Below are positions 2 to 9,269 of a stretch of DNA of 32,020 nt, one piece after another. The notes beneath the pieces were generated by a model. That model was not told where the DNA came from. It saw nothing but the letters and a program-made list of their open reading frames with translations, and searched no databases. Within the stretch, counting starts at the first letter, position 1. Each line of letters starts with the position of its first letter. Where the stretch lies: assembly GCA_945907425.1 (NCBI GenBank), contig CAMDTE010000008.1, positions 1 to 32,020 on the forward strand, given 5' to 3'. This stretch comes from Owenweeksia hongkongensis DSM 17368 (GTDB taxonomy: Bacteria; Bacteroidota; Bacteroidia; Flavobacteriales; Schleiferiaceae). Position numbers and translations under genes: made by a program.

Positions 2-373
2 TACGAGGATTTGTTAGCGGGGCAGTGGGGTTCCATAGAACGCGCGCTAGGACGAGCCGTAATAACACGAGGCACCCAATCTAAAAATTTCAACCATCTC
101 GTGCGCAGCCGTGGGAGTGAAAGCTGGCGCAAGTGGTTTACAGCCCAAGACGTTGCGGTATTAACGCCGATTTTTCAACCGTATCTGGTGAAATGGGGAT
201 ACGAGACTTCGGATGTTTCCTGGCCAATAGATCCCTTGCCGACCTTGAATCCATCCGAAGGATCTGTTTATATGTACGGGCTATTTCACCACGAAAACGG
301 GCCGTACGCCCTGCCGAAACCGTTGTGGGGTCGACTCAAAAATCAAATCAAGGCGTGGTTGGGTCGGACATAG
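2..373 (+). CDS. Sulfotransferase family protein, C-terminal fragment (5' end outside window)
   Basis: The reading frame is open from the left edge (frame beginning at base 2) and ends at TAG 371-373, so only the last ~123 residues are present. The fragment opens with YEDLL, matching the R-Y-E-D-L segment that follows the 3'-phosphate-binding loop in PAPS-dependent sulfotransferases. It later carries a WRKWFTAQDV...F..YLVKWGYE stretch typical of the family's C-terminal helix, where the protein folds over the bound PAPS. Such enzymes transfer sulfate from PAPS to hydroxyl groups of glycans or small molecules. The P-loop lies outside the window, so catalytic competence cannot be judged. It converges on the Wzt-like ATPase gene and overlaps its 3' end by 26 bases. 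That placement suggests, without proving, that its substrate is the exported polysaccharide. Confidence 0.7.
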   Translation, partial: YEDLLAGQWGSIERALGRAVITRGTQSKNFNHLVRSRGSESWRKWFTAQDVAVLTPIFQPYLVKWGYETSDVSWPIDPLPTLNPSEGSVYMYGLFHHENGPYALPKPLWGRLKNQIKAWLGRT

Positions 374-1484
374 TCCAAGTGGGGGACAGCCAAAGCCCGT
401 TGGATCGAGGGGCAAAGGAATCTCCTTCAGGAAAATACAGTCCGTCTTGCACGGCAAAAGGAAGTGCAGCGGCTTGACCGTCTTTTTCTAGGTCACAAAC
501 AAAGAGTTTGTAGCCCAAAAAGTAATTCCCCTGCATCAAGGGCAAACGATCGAAGTGCATTTTCCAATGAGCGCCTGCTGGCCAAGATGGCAGTGAAGTG
601 CCCGAAGTAGTGGGGCTGAAAGGGGCTAAAAATTCACCGTTTTGGTTGTGCAGTACCAGTCGAATATTGGCGCGCTCCAGGGGCATCGCGGGGTTTAATT
701 CCACGGTTAGCGTCGCCGGTTGGCCAGAAACCAAGGGTTGGCTCCATTGCATGGATTTTATCCACGGAGTTTGTTGAAATGCGCGAGGTGGTGATCCTTG
801 CCCAGCGGTGTTGAATCCGCTGTAGGCATCCAGTACATCGGCTGTGTTTCCGTCACGATGCAAGACCCCCTTGTCCAACCACAAGGTGCGTTGGCACAAT
901 CGTCGGATGGTTCCCAGGTGGTGAGAGACAACGACGAGTGTTTTCCCTTCCTCAGAAAGTACGGTTTGCATCCGCGCAAAGGATTGTTGTTGGAAGGCGA
1001 CATCGCCCACACCCAACACTTCATCCATTAATAATATATCCGCGCGCAAGTGTGCCGCCACAGCAAAACCCAGGCGTATTTTCATGCCCGATGAGTAATG
1101 TTTGATGGGTTCGTGGAGAAAATCTTCCACCCCTGCAAAAGCCACAATGGGGTCAATCAATGCTTTGATTTCCGATCGCTCCATCCCCAAGGCAATCCCT
1201 GAAAGAAATATATTCTCTTTACCTGTCAATTCCGGATGAAACCCTGTGCCCACTTCCAAAAGGCTAGCCAATTTCCCCTCCCTCAGAATTTTACCGCTCG
1301 ACGGAGAAGTGATGCCTGCAGCCAACCGCAGCAAGGTAGATTTACCAGCGCCATTGTGTCCAATCAAGCCTATGGACTCGCCCGGCATCCACTCAGAAGT
1401 AAAGTCGTGAATAGCTGTGCAGGCTTCTCCGTTGGCTTTTCTATAATCTTTGCGAACGGAGGTAAAATGAAGACGCGCTTTCAT
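348..1484 (-). CDS. wzt: Polysaccharide ABC exporter, ATP-binding subunit (Wzt/KpsT-like) with C-terminal extension
   Basis: 378 residues. The nucleotide-binding domain has Walker A GHNGAGKST (~42-50), the signature SSGM (~131-134), Walker B ILLMDE (~150-155) and the H-loop histidine near 188. The LLEVGTGFHPELTG stretch is characteristic of the Wzt/TagH/RfbB class that powers export of O-antigen, capsule or teichoic-acid-like polymers across the inner membrane. Residues ~230-378 form an extra beta-rich C-terminal domain; in Wzt proteins such domains bind the non-reducing terminus of the polymer and set specificity. Its ATG overlaps the stop of the upstream permease by 4 bases (ATGA), indicating translational coupling. 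Its 3' end overlaps a convergent sulfotransferase gene. The exported glycan cannot be deduced from this sequence. Confidence 0.9.
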   Translation of the reverse strand: MKARLHFTSVRKDYRKANGEACTAIHDFTSEWMPGESIGLIGHNGAGKSTLLRLAAGITSPSSGKILREGKLASLLEVGTGFHPELTGKENIFLSGIALGMERSEIKALIDPIVAFAGVEDFLHEPIKHYSSGMKIRLGFAVAAHLRADILLMDEVLGVGDVAFQQQSFARMQTVLSEEGKTLVVVSHHLGTIRRLCQRTLWLDKGVLHRDGNTADVLDAYSGFNTAGQGSPPRAFQQTPWIKSMQWSQPLVSGQPATLTVELNPAMPLERANIRLVLHNQNGEFLAPFSPTTSGTSLPSWPAGAHWKMHFDRLPLMQGNYFLGYKLFVCDLEKDGQAAALPFAVQDGLYFPEGDSFAPRSNGLWLSPTWTMSDPTTP

Positions 1485-2203
1485 AGGAAATCGGCACTAT
1501 TTTTCCCAAAATGCCGTAGGGCCAAAGGACCGGTAATGAACAAAACAATGGTGAAGGCAACACTCAATGCCCACGGCCCTGTGGGTTCCAGCAAGGTCGT
1601 GCTGATACTCTGTTTTGCCGCTATAACAGGGGAAGAGAGTGGATTCCATTGAATCCAAGAGGCATGGGTTGGTACGGAATACCAAACGGGCGTCAGAAAA
1701 AACAACATTTGAAATAAAAAGGGTAGCCCAGAGAGAAGGTCTTTGCTGCGGGTGGTCAACAGCGCCATCCACGTGCCAAAACCAAATCCCAAAAGCAACG
1801 ACCAGAGCAGTGGAATGAATACGATCATTCCGGAGGGGCCTTGAAACAAGAGGAGAACGAACAAGCCTACGGCCGCATCAAACGATGCGACGAGGGCTTT
1901 AGACAAAGGATAGGCCAGATGCGGAATCGGAGTTTTTTGTACCAGCGATAGATTGTTCACCAGGGAAAGTCCTCCCTGCAGCCCAGCGAAGGAAAAAGCA
2001 CTCCATACAATCCAGCCGGCAAAGAGAGCAGGGAAGGATTCCTTTTGACCCACCCCGTAGGAAGTTATCCACAAAACAGCGGCCATGCCTAGGGGCTGCG
2101 CAATAGCCCATACAGCCCCCAAAGCCGTTTGCGCATAACGCACTTTGATGTCGCGGTAGGCCAATGTTTGCGCTACGCTCCAAGCATGTCCTATGCGATT
2201 CAT
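1481..2203 (-). CDS. wzm: Polysaccharide ABC exporter, membrane subunit (Wzm-like, ABC-2 family)
   Basis: 240 residues with about six hydrophobic segments. The N-terminus reads L-A-Y-R-D-I-K-V-R-Y-AQTALGAVWAIAQPL, the cytosolic amphipathic motif of ABC-2 polysaccharide export permeases (Wzm, KpsM, TagG). It would form the transmembrane channel with the Wzt-like ATPase encoded immediately downstream with a 4-base overlap. Upstream, its ATG shares one base with the stop of the penicillin-binding protein gene (TGATG), so it is probably translated by re-initiation. Length is normal for the family. Confidence is high for class and low for the polymer transported. Confidence 0.9.
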   Translation of the reverse strand: MNRIGHAWSVAQTLAYRDIKVRYAQTALGAVWAIAQPLGMAAVLWITSYGVGQKESFPALFAGWIVWSAFSFAGLQGGLSLVNNLSLVQKTPIPHLAYPLSKALVASFDAAVGLFVLLLFQGPSGMIVFIPLLWSLLLGFGFGTWMALLTTRSKDLLSGLPFLFQMLFFLTPVWYSVPTHASWIQWNPLSSPVIAAKQSISTTLLEPTGPWALSVAFTIVLFITGPLALRHFGKNSADFL

Positions 2204-4620
2204 CAGGGAATAAAAGTAGGGTCTGTTCCGCCACCGCTTCCCGTTGGCTCCTCTGGAGCTACTGGGGTCTGTGCCTCATCAAGGAGGAAGACTTCTTCTT
2301 CTCGGAATAAATCATTGACTTCATCCATTAATCCGGGTTTGTAGTCCGGGCAATCCATGATGTTTTTCAAGCTGTCGGAGAGCGGTTTGAAGGGCAATAG
2401 ATATTTCCTGCTCAAACCAGAGCGTTCAACGGAACCCATGAAGTAGGCCCAAAGAGGAAGCGCTGTGGCGTTGCCTGCCCCTCGCGCATCGCTAAAATGC
2501 ACTTGAGGAGAAGAGGCACCCACCCAAGCTCCTGCGACTAAGTAGGGAGTGTAACCAACAAACCATCCGTCCGAATAGTTTTGTGCAGTACCCGTTTTCC
2601 CCGCATAATCCCCTGTCAGGCCAAAAGCGCGTACGCTATTTCCGGTCCCTTCATTGATTACAGCACGGAGCATATCGTTGAGCATGGCCACATTCGCCGT
2701 GTCCATGACTTGCCGCATTCTGATTCTACCTCTTTCGTACAGGACGTTGCCCATTTGGTCCGTAATTTTTGTTACCGCAACAGGGGTAAATGATTTTCCT
2801 CCGTTGGCAAAAGCGCAATAGGCGGTGACCAATTCCAACAACGAGGCGTCGTTTGCCCCAAGCGCCATGGCAGGTCGATTGTCCATATCTCCTTCAAAAC
2901 CCAACTTGCGCGCCATGCGTACCACGTTCCCTCTTCCTGTTTTCATCAATGCCTCAACCGTAGCTACGTTAATGGATCTTTTGAGTGCGCCGCGCATGGT
3001 GTACTCACCGCCGTAGAGTCGGTCATGGTTTTCGGGTGTCCAATTGACGAATTCCGGATAGGTTTTGAGTTCGTTTTCAAAATAAGTACAGGGAGGAATG
3101 CCTTTTTCCAAAGCGGCCGCGTATACAATGGGTTTAAAGGCTGAGGCCGTTTGACGCTCGGACAAAACATGGTCGTAGGGCAAGTATTGGAAGGAAGGTC
3201 CGCCCACCCACGCTTTAATGGTTCCGCGTTGCGGGTCCAAAGCCAAGAAACCACAACTCATCAAGGCTTGTGCATACTTTACGGAATCCAGTGTTGACAG
3301 GGTTCGTCTCTCATCTCCTTCCTCGTTGTACGCGAAAACAGTCATTTCCTTTTTTTCTTTCAATGCTTTATCGATTTCTTCAGGGCTTGCTCCATCCGCA
3401 AGCATGCGTTTGTAGAGACCTGTTTTCTTTACTTCCGATTGAAGAAGTCCCGGCAATTTTCTCCACGAGGATTCACCCCAATGGGCGTTGAATTGGGCCT
3501 GCAAATTTTTCATTTTGCGCCAAACAGCGTCGTTTGCATACCGCTGCATGGAAGACGAAATGGTGGTTTCGATGATCAAGCCATCGCGATCCAAATCATA
3601 AGCTGATCCGTCTGGTTTTTCAATTTCTGCTAAGATGGCCTCCAGCTCGGGACGCATAGCCGTCAAAAAGTAAGGTGCGGGCCGGTCCTCTTCTAAATTG
3701 TAATAGTTGATTTCCAAAGGCTTGTCGCACAATACTTTGTACTCCTCTTCGCTGAGGTATTCGTATTTGCGCATCTGACTCAAAACCACGTTACGCCTTT
3801 CTTTTGCGTTCTCTGGGTTTCTTCGGGGATTGTATTTGGAATTCGCTTTGAGCAAGCCGACCAAAACAGCGGCCTCTTCCAAGTCTAGTTCTGATGGTTT
3901 TTTATTGAAATACCGGAGAGAGGCTGTTTCGATGCCGTACACGTTCTCTCCAAAGCTTACGGTGTTCAAGTAGAGCTCCAGGATTTGTTCTTTGTTGTAA
4001 ATTTTCTCCAATCGCTTGGCGACAATGAATTCTCTAATTTTCGCTATAGGCATGGTCAATGGGCCGTAATTGCGACGCCCAAAAAGATTTTTTGCCAATT
4101 GCTGTGTAATGGTCGACCCACCCCCCGCAGATTCATTGCGTAGAACAATGGATTTAACAATGACCCGCACCAAGGAGCGTCGATCCACCCCGTCGTGTTG
4201 AAAAAATCGCACATCTTCTGTAGCCACCAACGCGTCGATCAAAAAGGGAGGTATTTCTTTGAAATCAGCGCCCGTTCTGTTCTGAACAAAGTACTTTCCA
4301 ATCAAAACCCCGTCTTCGGAAAACACTTCCGTCGCGAGGTCATTGCGCACGGAACGAATAGCGTCCTTCGTAGGCAAGATTCCAAAGGCACCCAAAGAAA
4401 TAGCGATCAATAGAAAGGAAATAGTTAAAAATCCGGCGATGGCTAGTTGTGCAGAGCGCCGTATCCATGCCTTGGTCATTCCCGGCCACTGAGCCATTCT
4501 TTGATCCAATACACGATAGGACGCTATGGTTTTATCTCGGACAGAACGCCAGGCAGACAAGCCTTTTTCAAGCCATTCGCGCCACTCGCACTTCTCGAGC
4601 CATTCCTTCCATTTATTCAT
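2203..4620 (-). CDS. mrcA: Class A penicillin-binding protein 1A (bifunctional glycosyltransferase/transpeptidase)
   Basis: A start at 4620 (MNKWKEW..., 805 residues) is preferred over the longer open frame to 4695, because it gives an 8-base overlap with the upstream permease gene instead of an 83-base one. A cytosolic N-terminus precedes one membrane anchor (~residues 55-82). The GT51 glycosyltransferase domain has E-D-V-R-F-F-Q-H-D-G (~135) and GGGSTITQQLAKNLF (~165-180). The transpeptidase domain has SAFK (~493-496, nucleophile Ser), SIN (~549-551) and KTGTA (~675-679), so all catalytic motifs are intact. The protein polymerises and cross-links peptidoglycan in the periplasm. The last ~50 residues are an acidic, Pro/Gly-rich tail of unknown role. 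It is unusual that this gene sits in an overlapping chain with a polysaccharide exporter. Confidence 0.95.
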   Translation of the reverse strand: MNKWKEWLEKCEWREWLEKGLSAWRSVRDKTIASYRVLDQRMAQWPGMTKAWIRRSAQLAIAGFLTISFLLIAISLGAFGILPTKDAIRSVRNDLATEVFSEDGVLIGKYFVQNRTGADFKEIPPFLIDALVATEDVRFFQHDGVDRRSLVRVIVKSIVLRNESAGGGSTITQQLAKNLFGRRNYGPLTMPIAKIREFIVAKRLEKIYNKEQILELYLNTVSFGENVYGIETASLRYFNKKPSELDLEEAAVLVGLLKANSKYNPRRNPENAKERRNVVLSQMRKYEYLSEEEYKVLCDKPLEINYYNLEEDRPAPYFLTAMRPELEAILAEIEKPDGSAYDLDRDGLIIETTISSSMQRYANDAVWRKMKNLQAQFNAHWGESSWRKLPGLLQSEVKKTGLYKRMLADGASPEEIDKALKEKKEMTVFAYNEEGDERRTLSTLDSVKYAQALMSCGFLALDPQRGTIKAWVGGPSFQYLPYDHVLSERQTASAFKPIVYAAALEKGIPPCTYFENELKTYPEFVNWTPENHDRLYGGEYTMRGALKRSINVATVEALMKTGRGNVVRMARKLGFEGDMDNRPAMALGANDASLLELVTAYCAFANGGKSFTPVAVTKITDQMGNVLYERGRIRMRQVMDTANVAMLNDMLRAVINEGTGNSVRAFGLTGDYAGKTGTAQNYSDGWFVGYTPYLVAGAWVGASSPQVHFSDARGAGNATALPLWAYFMGSVERSGLSRKYLLPFKPLSDSLKNIMDCPDYKPGLMDEVNDLFREEEVFLLDEAQTPVAPEEPTGSGGGTDPTFIP

Positions 4621-5866
4621 AACGCAACGATTCAATAGGGTCCAAAGCCGCCGCTTTTCGGGCCGGATACAGGCCTGCGACAATACCGACAACAATACAC
4701 AAAAGAACAGCCATTCCTATCCAATTCCAAGGGACAATAAAAGTACCGCCCATAGCGCTCGATAGCACATTTCCAATCAAAACACCCAATACTATTCCGA
4801 ACACGCCCCCCGCTATGGACACCAAAACTGCCTCCAACAAAAATTGCAGAGTAATGGTGTTCCGCGTGGCTCCCAAAGCCTTTCGAACGCCAATCTCGCG
4901 GGTGCGTTCCGTGACGGAGACCAACATGATGTTCATCAGGGAGATGGAAGCGCCCAACAGGGTGATGGCGCCAATCAATCCGGCAACCAGCCCAACGGAA
5001 GAAAGTTGTTCAATGAGCATGCTGGAAATAGAATCGCTTCTGCGGACATTGAAATTGTCTTCTGCTGAGGGCGGAAGATTTCGAACGGCTCGAAAAGTGG
5101 CGCGGGCTTCAGAAAGGGTAGGGTCTAGCCACTCTGGGGAGACGGCTTTGGTGGTAATCGCATAACTGGAGAAGGGAGTTCCAAAGGTGCGGTGGCCATT
5201 TTTTAACGGCACAACGACCGCCTGATCCTGTGACATAAAGGAGCTGTTTCCCTTGGCAGAGAGCACGCCCACCACACGGTAGCTTTTGCGTTGAAGGCGT
5301 ATACTTTTTCCAGGTTCGTATCCTTCCGGGAAGAGCTTCAGGGCCACATCTTGCCCTAAGATCACTACGTTCCTTCCCTCAAACAATTCTTGCTGAGAAA
5401 ACAATCGACCTTCTTTTAGGGAATAGCCCGTTGTTTTGAAATATTCGTTGTCTGCCGCAATCAGCTGAACATTGGGATTCGTTTTGAGTGTCCCGAGCTG
5501 CAACTGCGCTGTACCACTCAAGACGTCAGACACGCTCACGATGGCGCCTTGGTAATGAAAGTTCTGTTGAAATCGTAACGCTTGTCGAAGAGGAATACCG
5601 GGAAACTGCTTTTCTGTGCGCCCTTTTTTTCCTATCCGAATGGACATTCCACCGCTTTGAAAAGTAAACGATGTGGCTCCCATTTGAGAAAATTGCCCCG
5701 TTATGGCACTTTCCATAGCGGTAGTGGCCGTAAGCATGCCCACCAAAGCCATAATTCCGATGGAAATAATGAGTGCAGTCAATATTGCGCGAAGCATTTG
5801 GCCCCGTAAGGCACTGCTAGCCATTCCTAGCCCTTCCCAAAACGCTCGCCAACCCAGACTTTTCAT
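4613..5866 (-). CDS. MacB/FtsX-type ABC transporter permease
   Basis: 417 residues. There is one N-terminal membrane segment (~20-45), a large periplasmic MacB-PCD-like region (~45-280), then three C-terminal membrane segments. A V-S-V-T-E-R-T-R-E-I-G-V-RKALGA motif sits between the first and second of these, the coupling helix of the FtsX/MacB/LolE permease family. These mechanotransmission-type transporters move no substrate through the membrane themselves; they drive efflux, lipoprotein release or hydrolase activation with a separate ATPase. No LolD/MacB-type ATPase lies nearby; the Wzt-like ATPase downstream is of another class. The gene heads the chain permease-PBP1A-Wzm-Wzt and overlaps the PBP gene by 8 bases. 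An imperfect -7 box (TACCTTTA on the minus strand) lies just upstream of the ATG. Confidence 0.87.
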   Translation of the reverse strand: MKSLGWRAFWEGLGMASSALRGQMLRAILTALIISIGIMALVGMLTATTAMESAITGQFSQMGATSFTFQSGGMSIRIGKKGRTEKQFPGIPLRQALRFQQNFHYQGAIVSVSDVLSGTAQLQLGTLKTNPNVQLIAADNEYFKTTGYSLKEGRLFSQQELFEGRNVVILGQDVALKLFPEGYEPGKSIRLQRKSYRVVGVLSAKGNSSFMSQDQAVVVPLKNGHRTFGTPFSSYAITTKAVSPEWLDPTLSEARATFRAVRNLPPSAEDNFNVRRSDSISSMLIEQLSSVGLVAGLIGAITLLGASISLMNIMLVSVTERTREIGVRKALGATRNTITLQFLLEAVLVSIAGGVFGIVLGVLIGNVLSSAMGGTFIVPWNWIGMAVLLCIVVGIVAGLYPARKAAALDPIESLRYE

Positions 5867-5917: not shown

Positions 5918-8425
5918 ATGCAACATTTCAACCATCACTCCTTTTCGACCCAGGAATCTCCTTCGTTCTTAGGTATTTTAGCGACGGGATGGCCGGGAGT
6001 TTTGTCTATGAGGCGTGGTCAAAAAAGAGAAATACCCGCCGATTTTTCCGCTTTTTTATCCCGTCAAAAATCTTCGAATTCTCAAAGTATTTCGCCACGC
6101 GCACTGGTTGTGGGGTGGGACGGTGCGGATCCTCGATGGATAGAACGATTCATCGCCGAAGGCAAGTTGCCAGCGATGGCGCAGTTGACCTCTCGTGGCT
6201 CCCTGGGTTTGTTGGCGTCTGTTCAGCCCCTTTTGTCTCCTTGTGTATGGACATCCATCGCTACGGGGGTGCGTCCACACGAACATGGCGTTTTGGGATT
6301 TGTGCAAAACGGACGTGTCGTGAGAGGGTCAGACCGGGAGAAGCCAGCGTTTTGGGATGCAGCGGTGAAAGCGGGAAAAAAGACACAAGTAATCGGTTGG
6401 TGGCCTTCTCATCCGGCCTATTCGGTAGGGATGGATGGATTCATGGTGAGCGATTTGCACAGCTTAGAGGGGTTAGCGGATCAGAGTGTTTTTCCTTCTC
6501 AAGAGAGGGACGTACTGGACTTTCTTCGGGTGTCTCCCCAGGATCTGGGAGTCGATGTCTTGGCTCCTTTCTTGGAGCCGGTGGCTCAGCGTCTCCCGGA
6601 AGTTCGCCAGGAGAATCATCCGCTGCAATCTGCTGTGGCTCATGCCGTCGCAGCAGCCCTGACGATTCAAGCCTACGCCACCTACGCGATGGCCTCGCGC
6701 CTATGGGATCTGCACGCGGTCTACTTCAATGCCTTGGATCCACTGCAACATTTGTCAGTGGCCTACCCGGAGTTGGTGGAACCAGCGTATCGTTTCCATG
6801 ACATGTTGCTGGAGGCATTGCTGGATCAAGCAGGGGAATCTGTACATGTATGTGTTGTGTCGGACCATGGTTTCAAAGCCAGTTCAGAACTTCAAGAAAA
6901 GTCTCCCCATCCGGCGCAGGATCACGCACCTTACGGGGTGATTGTGGCGGCAGGCCCCCAATGGGAGGGTCCGCAGCGGTTATACGGCGCCAGCGTTTTG
7001 GACATAGCGCCCACCGTTTGTTCCGTTCTGGGTGTGCCCTGGGTGGACTGCTCCGGTGTCCCTTTGAACGGGCTTTGGAAAAGCGGGACTGCCCCCGTAG
7101 TGCAAAAAATCGAATCTATTCCACCGATTTGGAAATCGGACACCTCTTTGGCCCAGAATGAAAATCAAAGTTGGGAAAGATTGGTATCCATGGGCTATTT
7201 GGAACCAGACGCGGTGTCAACGGACTCTCTTTCGTATACTCGAAAACACACCCTGTACAATGAATGTCTTTCTCGGTTGGCCGTAGGTGAATGGTTTACA
7301 GTAGGCCAGAAAATTACGGAAGGATTGGTAGAGTTTCCACAAGACCAAAGGCTTTTGCATCTCAGGGCTTCTGTAGCTTTTCAATGCCACGATACTTCGG
7401 TGGGGCTCGATGGACTACAGGGCGTGGGGCGCACCTTGTTTGAAGCCCTGTGGGGTTTAAGAGAGGGGCAATGGGAGCAGGCACTTGTTTTGTTGCGCTG
7501 TCTCCAACAAGAGCAACCGCTCAGCGATGAATGGCGTTGGCTTGTGGTGCGCTCTCTGCGGCAGGCAAGTCAATGGAACGAGCACCGCGTTTGGGTGGAG
7601 GAGTATCTTTCTCAATGCCCCGAATGGCCTCAACCTTCTGCCGACTGGCAATTGGAAGCAGGGTATGCCGCCGCCGCCCAAGGGAATTTTTCCGAAGCCT
7701 TGGACTGGGCTGTTCGTGCAAGCCAACAACAGCACAAAAACATCGAAATCCATAAAGCCATTGCGCAATGGGCTGAAAGGGCTTCCCTTTCAGAGGTAGC
7801 GACTCAAGCCACTGCCGTCGTTCACCTCTTGCAAGAACAAACAAAACCCTCTCATTCGCCTGTGGTCTTGGTTGTTGGTCATCCTCGGTCGGGCACCTCA
7901 CTCGTGATGCAATGTTTGGAAAGAATGAAAATTCCTTTGCAAACCGATGGTCACCGAATTCCTGATAAACACAACCCCAAAGGATATTTTGAATTTGACC
8001 CGGTCAAAAAATCGTTGGTTGACACCTCTTGGTTAACAACATGCTTTGGGAAAGCGGTGAAAGTAGTGACTCCTTTGGTGCCCTCCCTTCCGCAGCAGAT
8101 ATCTTATCGTGTCGTGTGGATTCGAAGGCCTTTGCCAGAGGTTGTTTTGTCACAAGAAATTCTTCGTGGAAGGCGAAAAGAAGAGGTATTGAGACACATG
8201 CCGTTTGGGCTTTTTCAACAGCTAGAAAAAGAGGACAAAGCGCTTGCGCAATGGCTCGATCATTTACCCCAAGAAAATGTTTGTTTGATCGATTTTCATC
8301 GATTGATTCAGAATCCGCAACAAACGATTGAAGAATTAGCAAAATTCTTGCAATGCCCCATTCCACAAGAGGGAACCTCAGGATGGGTGGATGTTGCGCT
8401 GGTCAGAAACACCTTATCTTTGTAG
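5918..8425 (+). CDS. Three-module protein: alkaline-phosphatase-superfamily phosphodiesterase, helical (TPR-like) repeats, sulfotransferase
   Basis: 835 residues from ATG 5918. Residues ~60-390 are a type I phosphodiesterase/nucleotide-pyrophosphatase-like domain: GWDGAD (Asp 68) as first metal site, L-S-P-C-V-W-T-S-I-A-T-G (~106-117) holding the probable Ser/Thr nucleophile, then D274/H278, S-D-H-G-F (D316/H317) and H336 as further metal ligands. An MGYLEPD segment (~425) resembles the LGY linker that precedes TPR repeats in sulfatase-like proteins. Residues ~440-635 are helical, with a TPR-like unit around 580-605. Residues ~648-835 are a sulfotransferase: V-V-G-H-P-R-S-G-T-S (5'-phosphosulfate loop, ~652-661), W-I-R-R-P...S (3'-phosphate site, ~734-745) and a YEDL-like L-I-D-F-H-R-L. 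There is no clear signal peptide, so it is probably cytosolic. The physiological substrates are unknown. Confidence 0.82.
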   Translation: MQHFNHHSFSTQESPSFLGILATGWPGVLSMRRGQKREIPADFSAFLSRQKSSNSQSISPRALVVGWDGADPRWIERFIAEGKLPAMAQLTSRGSLGLLASVQPLLSPCVWTSIATGVRPHEHGVLGFVQNGRVVRGSDREKPAFWDAAVKAGKKTQVIGWWPSHPAYSVGMDGFMVSDLHSLEGLADQSVFPSQERDVLDFLRVSPQDLGVDVLAPFLEPVAQRLPEVRQENHPLQSAVAHAVAAALTIQAYATYAMASRLWDLHAVYFNALDPLQHLSVAYPELVEPAYRFHDMLLEALLDQAGESVHVCVVSDHGFKASSELQEKSPHPAQDHAPYGVIVAAGPQWEGPQRLYGASVLDIAPTVCSVLGVPWVDCSGVPLNGLWKSGTAPVVQKIESIPPIWKSDTSLAQNENQSWERLVSMGYLEPDAVSTDSLSYTRKHTLYNECLSRLAVGEWFTVGQKITEGLVEFPQDQRLLHLRASVAFQCHDTSVGLDGLQGVGRTLFEALWGLREGQWEQALVLLRCLQQEQPLSDEWRWLVVRSLRQASQWNEHRVWVEEYLSQCPEWPQPSADWQLEAGYAAAAQGNFSEALDWAVRASQQQHKNIEIHKAIAQWAERASLSEVATQATAVVHLLQEQTKPSHSPVVLVVGHPRSGTSLVMQCLERMKIPLQTDGHRIPDKHNPKGYFEFDPVKKSLVDTSWLTTCFGKAVKVVTPLVPSLPQQISYRVVWIRRPLPEVVLSQEILRGRRKEEVLRHMPFGLFQQLEKEDKALAQWLDHLPQENVCLIDFHRLIQNPQQTIEELAKFLQCPIPQEGTSGWVDVALVRNTLSL
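8415..8422 (+). promoter_or_regulatory. Putative -7 promoter box adjoining the start codon
   Basis: TATCTTTG, a perfect TAnnTTTG, ends 4 bases before the ATG at 8427 and lies within the last codons of the upstream gene. If used, the transcript would begin at or within a few bases of the start codon (leaderless or nearly so). Confidence 0.5.
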
Positions 8426-8426
8426 G

Positions 8427-9269
8427 ATGAATCCATCCGTATCCCAAAAACAATCGCTGTCCTCGTATGCCGCTTTGGCTGCCTCCTTACTGGCGAGTTC
8501 TGCTGTTCAAGGTCAAATTGTCTATACAGACATCAATGACACCACCGTGAACACGCATTTGGGTCAGGTGGATATCAATATAAACAACGATACGGTACCT
8601 GATTTTTACCTTCGCTTGTATAAAAATGCAGGGGCGCTCGGAAAAATGGATGCCATCTTTATTTATCCCTATGATTCTGTTTTTGGAAAAGTAGCGGGAA
8701 GTGCGCAGGCCGGGTTCAACTATCCGTTCAATTTGACTCCAGGTTATGTGGTGGAGGATTCTATCTCCTTTAACGGAACGGGCGCTAATGGAACGGAAGG
8801 AGCATTGTCTTTCCGGTTCGATGGGCAACCCTATCCAAATATTGAATGGTCTGGAGCGGGAGATGGATTTTTAGGCGTACGAATTCGTCCCGATGATGCC
8901 TACCGCTATGGGTGGATTCGTGTACAAGTGGCTGCAGACGGAGAGTCTTTCACCGTCAAGGACATGGCTTTTGAGTCGTCCAAGGACAGTATGATCTATG
9001 CGGGCCACCTGTGGATGAGTCGCGGGGAAATGTGGAGTCAGAAAATTCAGAGCATTGCCGTTGACGGAGGAATACGCTTGGTAAAACCCTCTTCATCAGA
9101 ACCCATGTTTGTTGAGGTGTTGGGAATGGATGGCGCTCTATTGACTAAAGCGCAATGGAATGACGATCAATTGTTTTTACCTCTTGTGGGTGTGGCTCGT
9201 ACACTGGTTATCCTGCAATTCCATGTAGAAGGAATGACCGTACGTCGTCGACTCCTATTGAATAATTAA
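8427..9269 (+). CDS. Secreted protein with T9SS type A-like C-terminal domain
   Basis: 280 residues starting MNPSVSQKQS. The ATG at 8427 is chosen over an upstream in-frame start at 8391 because the resulting N-terminus is a signal peptide (hydrophobic A-A-L-A-A-S-L-L-A-S-S-A-V, cleavage probably after VQG). The body opens with IVYTDINDTTV and a D-I-N-I-N-N-D-T-V-P-D-F repeat-like segment, and has a Y-G-W-I-R-V-QV strand near 165, typical of a poorly characterised Bacteroidota secreted family. The last ~70 residues (VEVLGMDGALL...VARTLVILQFHVEG...RRRLLLNN) match the pattern of type IX secretion sorting domains. I infer export across the outer membrane by T9SS. Function is unknown. Confidence 0.7.
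   Translation: MNPSVSQKQSLSSYAALAASLLASSAVQGQIVYTDINDTTVNTHLGQVDININNDTVPDFYLRLYKNAGALGKMDAIFIYPYDSVFGKVAGSAQAGFNYPFNLTPGYVVEDSISFNGTGANGTEGALSFRFDGQPYPNIEWSGAGDGFLGVRIRPDDAYRYGWIRVQVAADGESFTVKDMAFESSKDSMIYAGHLWMSRGEMWSQKIQSIAVDGGIRLVKPSSSEPMFVEVLGMDGALLTKAQWNDDQLFLPLVGVARTLVILQFHVEGMTVRRRLLLNN

Follow-up and report, generated by a model that had tools for sequence, protein, structure and literature searches.

Organization of the locus

The stretch of 32,020 nucleotides that was analysed (the window) encodes an enzyme of 835 residues, in which a phosphodiesterase (PDE) domain, a TPR-like solenoid and a sulfotransferase domain follow one another in a single chain, and directly behind it a secreted protein of 280 residues, referred to here as the partner (Table 1). 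The ORF call bore out the reading frame on which the original prediction for this DNA was based. The Pfam model Phosphodiest (PF01663) matched the enzyme at residues 63-324 (E 5e-26, 92.5 bits, above the curated cut-off of 23), and the C terminus was recognized by Sulfotransfer_3 (PF13469, 32.2 bits, cut-off 27) and Sulfotransfer_1 (PF00685, 28.8 bits, cut-off 22). TPR models remained below threshold in this copy but were strong in relatives. An AlphaFold2 model built from a 65-sequence alignment (mean pLDDT 87.7, pTM 0.81) consists of an alpha/beta part up to about residue 390, at least 12 helices between residues 411 and 642, and a second alpha/beta part from residue 649 onward. Thus, the three folded domains proposed earlier were recovered, with Pfam matches at both ends and the modelled helical solenoid between them, and the enzyme was also confirmed to be devoid of a signal peptide.

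Table 1. Position of the genes, domains and segments discussed in the text within the window.
Feature	Position	Strand	Basis or remark
Wzt-like ATPase and Wzm-like permease, adjacent genes (polysaccharide or teichoic-acid type exporter)	348-2203	-	
MacB/FtsX-like permease, divergent to the enzyme	4613-5866	-	
PDE-TPR-sulfotransferase enzyme, 835 aa	5918-8425	+	Stop codon TAG at 8423-8425; ORF call, Pfam, AlphaFold
Enzyme residues 1-51, microprotein-like segment (SFLGILATGWPGVLSMRR compared with GSLGLLALGxxGLxxWR)	5918-6070	+	Motif match by eye, W replaced by M
Enzyme residues 56-405, AlkP-superfamily type I phosphodiesterase (NPP-like)	6083-7132	+	D68, T112, D274, H278, D316, H317, H336
Enzyme residues 411-642, helical TPR-like solenoid	7148-7843	+	TPR models sub-threshold here; AlphaFold helices
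Enzyme residues 645-835, sulfotransferase domain	7850-8422	+	5'-PSB PRSGTS 656-661, E692, 3'-PB R737...S745
Partner gene, 280-aa secreted protein	8427-9269	+	ATG 1 nt past the enzyme stop codon
Partner conserved leader (MNPSVSQKQSLSSYAALAASLLASSAVQG)	8427-8513	+	Codon of the leader Tyr at 8466; predicted first mature residue Q at 8514 (putative cleavage site)
Partner C-terminal beta domain, located where homologues have the T9SS type A sorting tail	9045-9266	+	TIGR04183 matches of homologues; Foldseek matches to T9SS CTDs

Structure comparison assigned the N-terminal half to the NPP-type fold, with Z scores of 27-28 to ENPP1/3, PafA and Xac NPP; the whole enzyme served as query and the matches were dominated by the PDE domain. 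The nearest sequence matches in the PDB were phosphonoacetate hydrolase and Xac NPP, with weak E values.

Conservation of the catalytic sites

The metal ligands of the PDE domain, D68, D274, H278, D316, H317 and H336, were found in 65/65 relatives, and the nucleophile T112 is a Thr in 56 and a Ser in 9 of them. We take these seven positions to be the NPP residues of a two-metal AlkP-type phosphodiesterase. The domain resembles the NPP/ENPP phosphodiesterases and PafA of the AlkP superfamily in its fold (Z about 28), its full ligand set and its Thr nucleophile; it differs from them by the missing signal peptide and by its fusion to a TPR region and a sulfotransferase. An FGly sulfatase was ruled out, as the nucleophile position is occupied by Thr or Ser and never by Cys in the 65 sequences.

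In the sulfotransferase domain, R657, G659, T660, S661, E692, R737 and S745 show no or hardly any variation across the 65 relatives. Binding of PAPS and catalysis have been ascribed to an Arg in the 5'-PSB, an Arg/Ser in the 3'-PB and a Glu/His between the two (PMC6637879), and the enzyme and its relatives have the corresponding residues R657, R737, S745 and E692 in 65/65 cases. The domain shares its PAPS motifs with the cytosolic SULTs and the protein-tyrosine sulfotransferases, and its profile gave weak matches to SULT1 (E 1e-6) and TPST1 (E 1e-3); unlike these enzymes, it is short (about 190 residues) and located C-terminal to a TPR region. Judged from the sequences, both catalytic sites look intact, with a residue conservation far beyond chance, and the earlier claim that the metal ligands and both PAPS-binding motifs are preserved was upheld by catalytic sets that are invariant or nearly so.

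Distribution of the enzyme

The window's own genome contains one copy of the enzyme, and 59 of the 88 genomes of the family Schleiferiaceae carry it, either whole or as contig-edge fragments. Within an even draw of the class Bacteroidia, it was identified in 35/395 genomes and 23/197 genera. The original prediction had regarded the joining of all three domains in one chain as unusual, which turned out to be wrong because of these counts in the family and the class, and a rare one-off fusion was thereby also ruled out.

A degenerate scan of reference genomes yielded 497 relatives; a single-sequence search of genome contigs gave no match, and an alignment search was needed. Each of the best 80 of these 497 relatives is encoded by an uninterrupted ORF of 813-910 aa, ruling out a fusion artefact of sequencing or annotation. 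The labels among the best 80 of 497 were nearly all Bacteroidota, Flavobacteriales, Chitinophagales or Saprospiraceae; only two fell outside this set (L067, uncultured, and L094, Rokubacteria). Relatives that bear a name comprise Phaeocystidibacter as well as MAGs assigned to Owenweeksia and Schleiferiaceae, and cultured bacteria with the enzyme include Phaeocystidibacter luteus (L031) and Winogradskyella thalassocola (L098). The entry L094, titled Candidatus Rokubacteria, displays the gene order of Flavobacteriaceae around the enzyme and is probably a mislabelled MAG. No description of the PDE-TPR-sulfotransferase combination, also together with type IX secretion, was found in the open papers searched. 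PADLOC profiles of known anti-phage defence proteins gave no match at E 0.01, by which a defence system was ruled out.

A linked secreted protein and a microprotein

The ORFs around 80 loci (the best 80 of the 497 relatives) and in the window were clustered into neighbour families. The partner family was present in 67 loci, and any other neighbour family occurred in at most 18. Using a profile of the family, a partner was located within 500 nt of the enzyme in 64 of the 81 loci (best 80 of 497 and the window), the other 17 having none nearby. Genes within 500 nt matched the profile in 67/169 cases, those more than 2.5 kb away in 10/544 (Fisher p 1.5e-36, the loci being phylogenetically non-independent). 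In Schleiferiaceae and Chitinophagales, the partner gene follows the enzyme gene on the same strand; in Flavobacteriaceae, it lies upstream in divergent orientation. It thus occurs on either side of the enzyme, and the neighbours are otherwise unrelated. Permeases of the MacB/FtsX-like family are neighbours of the enzyme in 12 loci, most of them from the window's own taxonomic family, which is probably simple synteny.

Members of the partner family are secreted proteins of about 290 residues which usually end in a T9SS tail, as TIGR04183 matched 33/36 and PF18962 31/36 of the aligned homologues; the copy in the window matches neither of the two and gave no match to any other family model. The predicted partner structure begins with a helical leader, followed by a beta domain and, at the C terminus, a domain similar to T9SS CTDs (Foldseek). 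Some loci encode several leader-type proteins per enzyme, and in L058 as many as four partners stand in tandem. In L054, L061 and L063, the leader-type partners are very long (about 660-806 aa) and contain Ig-like repeats. The Saprospiraceae-type partners of L075, L087, L103 and L106 have leaders of about 60-80 residues with a similar L.[KE].Y element in front of other mature domains.

In 63/80 loci (best 80 of 497), a microprotein ORF of about 35-103 residues is situated just upstream of the enzyme gene, and in most cases the two overlap by 8-20 nt at the enzyme start. Within the motif GSLGLLALGxxGLxxWR, the G, A, G and W are present in 63/63 and the R in 61/63 of these ORFs, the search pattern partly requiring the G, A and G and leaving W and R free. 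The microprotein is fused to the enzyme in L046 and L059, and the pattern search returned nothing in the Owenweeksia-type loci L033-L037. In the window, enzyme residues 14-33 (SPSFLGILATGWPGVLSMRR) resemble the motif by eye with an M in place of the W, and residues 11-50 were modelled as helices (AlphaFold, block pLDDT 71-93); residues 1-51 look like a fused copy of the microprotein. This fourth element of the enzyme, like the linked gene downstream, had not been noticed in the original prediction.

The partner leader accompanies the enzyme

The first 30 or so residues of the partner are conserved as L..L..Y.alA.a..g...a.gQ[IV].YTD. Tyr15 of the leader, which belongs to the predicted cleaved-off segment, occurs in 46/46 fusion-type partners, and Tyr34 at the mature start in 39/46, with W or I in the others. 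These leaders are less hydrophobic (mean maximum KD over 12 residues 1.50-1.58) than the N termini of enzyme-free orthologues (2.10). Within the family Schleiferiaceae, the leader-form partner was detected in 54/59 enzyme-positive but only 1/29 enzyme-negative genomes; in 24 of these 29, the secreted protein is retained but starts with an ordinary signal peptide. In the five enzyme-positive genomes without the leader form, the enzyme was seen only as fragments or contig-edge copies, and eight enzyme-positive genomes also hold copies with ordinary signals. At the genus level, the co-occurrence of leader and enzyme gave a p value of 0.004, which rests on three enzyme-free genera and few independent losses. 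The 99%-complete genome G030 (L152/L187) encodes a leader-type partner with no enzyme found, reflecting either a recent loss or an assembly gap.

Strongly conserved columns of the mature domain are largely common to the partners with and without enzyme, and the mature part yielded no candidate acceptor co-varying with the enzyme; only the leader Tyr differs between the two sets. This Tyr was absent from candidate leaders beside split enzymes (see below). As the mature residues are largely shared, the leader Tyr differs and the leader form tracks the presence of the enzyme, we conclude that the leader, and not the mature domain, is matched to the enzyme.

Split enzymes and supply of PAPS

In the genome G606 (L181), the PDE-TPR part and the sulfotransferase are encoded by separate convergent genes. 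In G782 and G830, cysC-cysD-cysN are followed by a stand-alone sulfotransferase gene, beside a PDE-TPR gene. The fused sulfotransferases of G687 and G816 (L184, 4297-7340, and L185, 3804-6784 on the reverse strand) lack the PRSGTS motif, the copy in G816/L185 being cut by the contig end, and in both genomes an intact stand-alone sulfotransferase is encoded directly upstream. In addition, APS kinase genes, as read from the sequence, lie beside the enzyme gene in the loci L067 and L072, and an APS kinase is present in 59/88 family genomes. The split genes, the cysCDN operons, the intact copies in trans and the APS kinase neighbours together connect the sulfotransferase both with PAPS and with the PDE-TPR part. 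Since the stand-alone sulfotransferase twice stands directly behind cysC-cysD-cysN, PAPS is the likely donor.

CysC, CysD and ATP sulfurylase (Sat) were, however, not found in the window's own genome, which is 91.3% complete, nor in most genomes of genus g6 that keep the enzyme. Despite these missing genes, nine PAPS-poor genomes (G000, G007, G098, G025, G089, G091, G092, G103 and G096) contain 2-9 PF13469 matches each, so that either binning has removed island genes or the enzyme relies on a different donor.

Possible function and alternatives

The combination of the enzyme, the leader-bearing secreted protein and the microprotein suggests a hitherto undescribed system that modifies, and probably sulfates, proteins before export. 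The reading best supported by these observations, which we put forward tentatively and at somewhat less than an even chance, is a module spanning the phylum Bacteroidota by which secreted clients would be recognized through their leader and modified in the cytosol, probably by sulfation, prior to export. The TPR solenoid and the microprotein, either separate or as residues 1-51, would engage the partner precursor via the conserved leader, and the sulfotransferase domain would move sulfate from PAPS to this precursor ahead of Sec export and T9SS sorting, after which signal peptidase would take off the leader. Within the same complex, the PDE domain may strip a phospho-substituent from the client or hydrolyse the nucleotide (PAPS/PAP), which would limit or reset the reaction. 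We infer that the partner is the substrate and sulfate the transferred group, as we do the order of the events and the role of the PDE domain. The adjacent leader-bearing protein and the cysCDN operons point to sulfation of exported proteins, a reading that was absent from the original prediction, in which the enzyme might take off one group and sulfate the same acceptor or might process a sulfotransferase by-product. Several observations argue against it: the PAPS genes missing from the own and most g6 genomes, the lack of a clear single acceptor residue, the 17/81 loci (best 80 of 497 and the window) without a partner nearby, the leader without enzyme in G030 and the few independent losses behind the co-occurrence.

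Among known systems, the T9SS response regulator PorX, compared by description, likewise links a cytosolic AlkP-superfamily domain to T9SS, but it has a CheY-like receiver and neither TPR nor sulfotransferase (PMC10951265, PMC11320123). RaxST of Xanthomonas carries out protein tyrosine sulfation of RaxX, a leader-bearing secreted peptide, which was the only documented bacterial tyrosine sulfation as of 2019 (PMC6637879). As in RaxST/RaxX, a cytosolic sulfotransferase is encoded beside a secreted, leader-bearing precursor, and as in RaxST there is an Arg in one PAPS motif, a Ser in the other and a His/Glu base between. Unlike RaxST, the window enzyme has a PDE and a TPR region in the same chain and a microprotein is present, and unlike the RaxX peptide the partner is a protein of about 290 residues. 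In addition, an invariant mature Tyr acceptor as in RaxX was not seen, given that Tyr34 varies and the invariant leader Tyr15 is predicted to be removed, and the clustered neighbours include no type I secretion genes (RaxAB), the partner family being T9SS-tailed. The pair may work somewhat like RaxST/RaxX, but due to the lack of an invariant mature Tyr and of type I secretion genes it is not a member of that system.

Glycans or small molecules are the presumed substrates of most bacterial sulfotransferases of this type, and Wzm/Wzt-like exporter genes are present in the window. Both would fit an enzyme that sulfates a cytosolic glycan or lipid-carrier intermediate of a surface polysaccharide, with the PDE domain processing a phosphodiester-linked precursor and the secreted protein being a co-regulated surface protein and no substrate. 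This is unlikely, as it leaves unexplained why the partner switches to an ordinary signal peptide where the enzyme is missing and why leader-type proteins occur in tandem, and as glycan genes are not conserved as neighbours of the enzyme. The lower hydrophobicity of the leader, and the leader being the part that co-varies with the enzyme, could also be accounted for by an enzyme serving mainly as an export escort, whose TPR region and microprotein hold precursors with weak signal peptides while the catalytic domains regulate this holding or act on nucleotides. We consider such a role improbable, since two catalytic sites are fully conserved in the 65 relatives and since the operons of cysCDN with a sulfotransferase and the in-trans rescue of decayed fused sulfotransferases argue that the chemistry matters. 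Use of another 3'-phosphoadenosine donor, e.g., a CoA derivative, by the sulfotransferase-like domain, at least in lineages without PAPS synthesis, would reconcile the missing CysC, CysD and Sat with the 3'-phosphate-binding R737 and S745 that are invariant in the sampled relatives, but is very unlikely in the light of the cysCDN operons in split relatives, the APS kinase neighbours and the 4-9 PF13469 matches kept by each of the searched g6 genomes, because of which the missing PAPS genes may be binning gaps.

Leader-guided modification before export could also be taken one step further, as a phylum-wide bacterial protein-sulfation system in which the PDE-TPR-sulfotransferase and its microprotein cofactor read a dedicated leader on Sec/T9SS-exported proteins and sulfate them in the cytosol, and in which an ordinary signal peptide replaces this leader each time the enzyme is lost; in this form we regard it as possible but rather doubtful. 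If the module does sulfate exported proteins, it would represent a widespread bacterial route to sulfation with its clients, leader and cofactor identified, and marine Bacteroidota in culture would allow it to be tested. Should no sulfation take place, the pairing of this leader with one particular enzyme of the cytosol would still imply a step of maturation or targeting before export that is undescribed in the papers searched.
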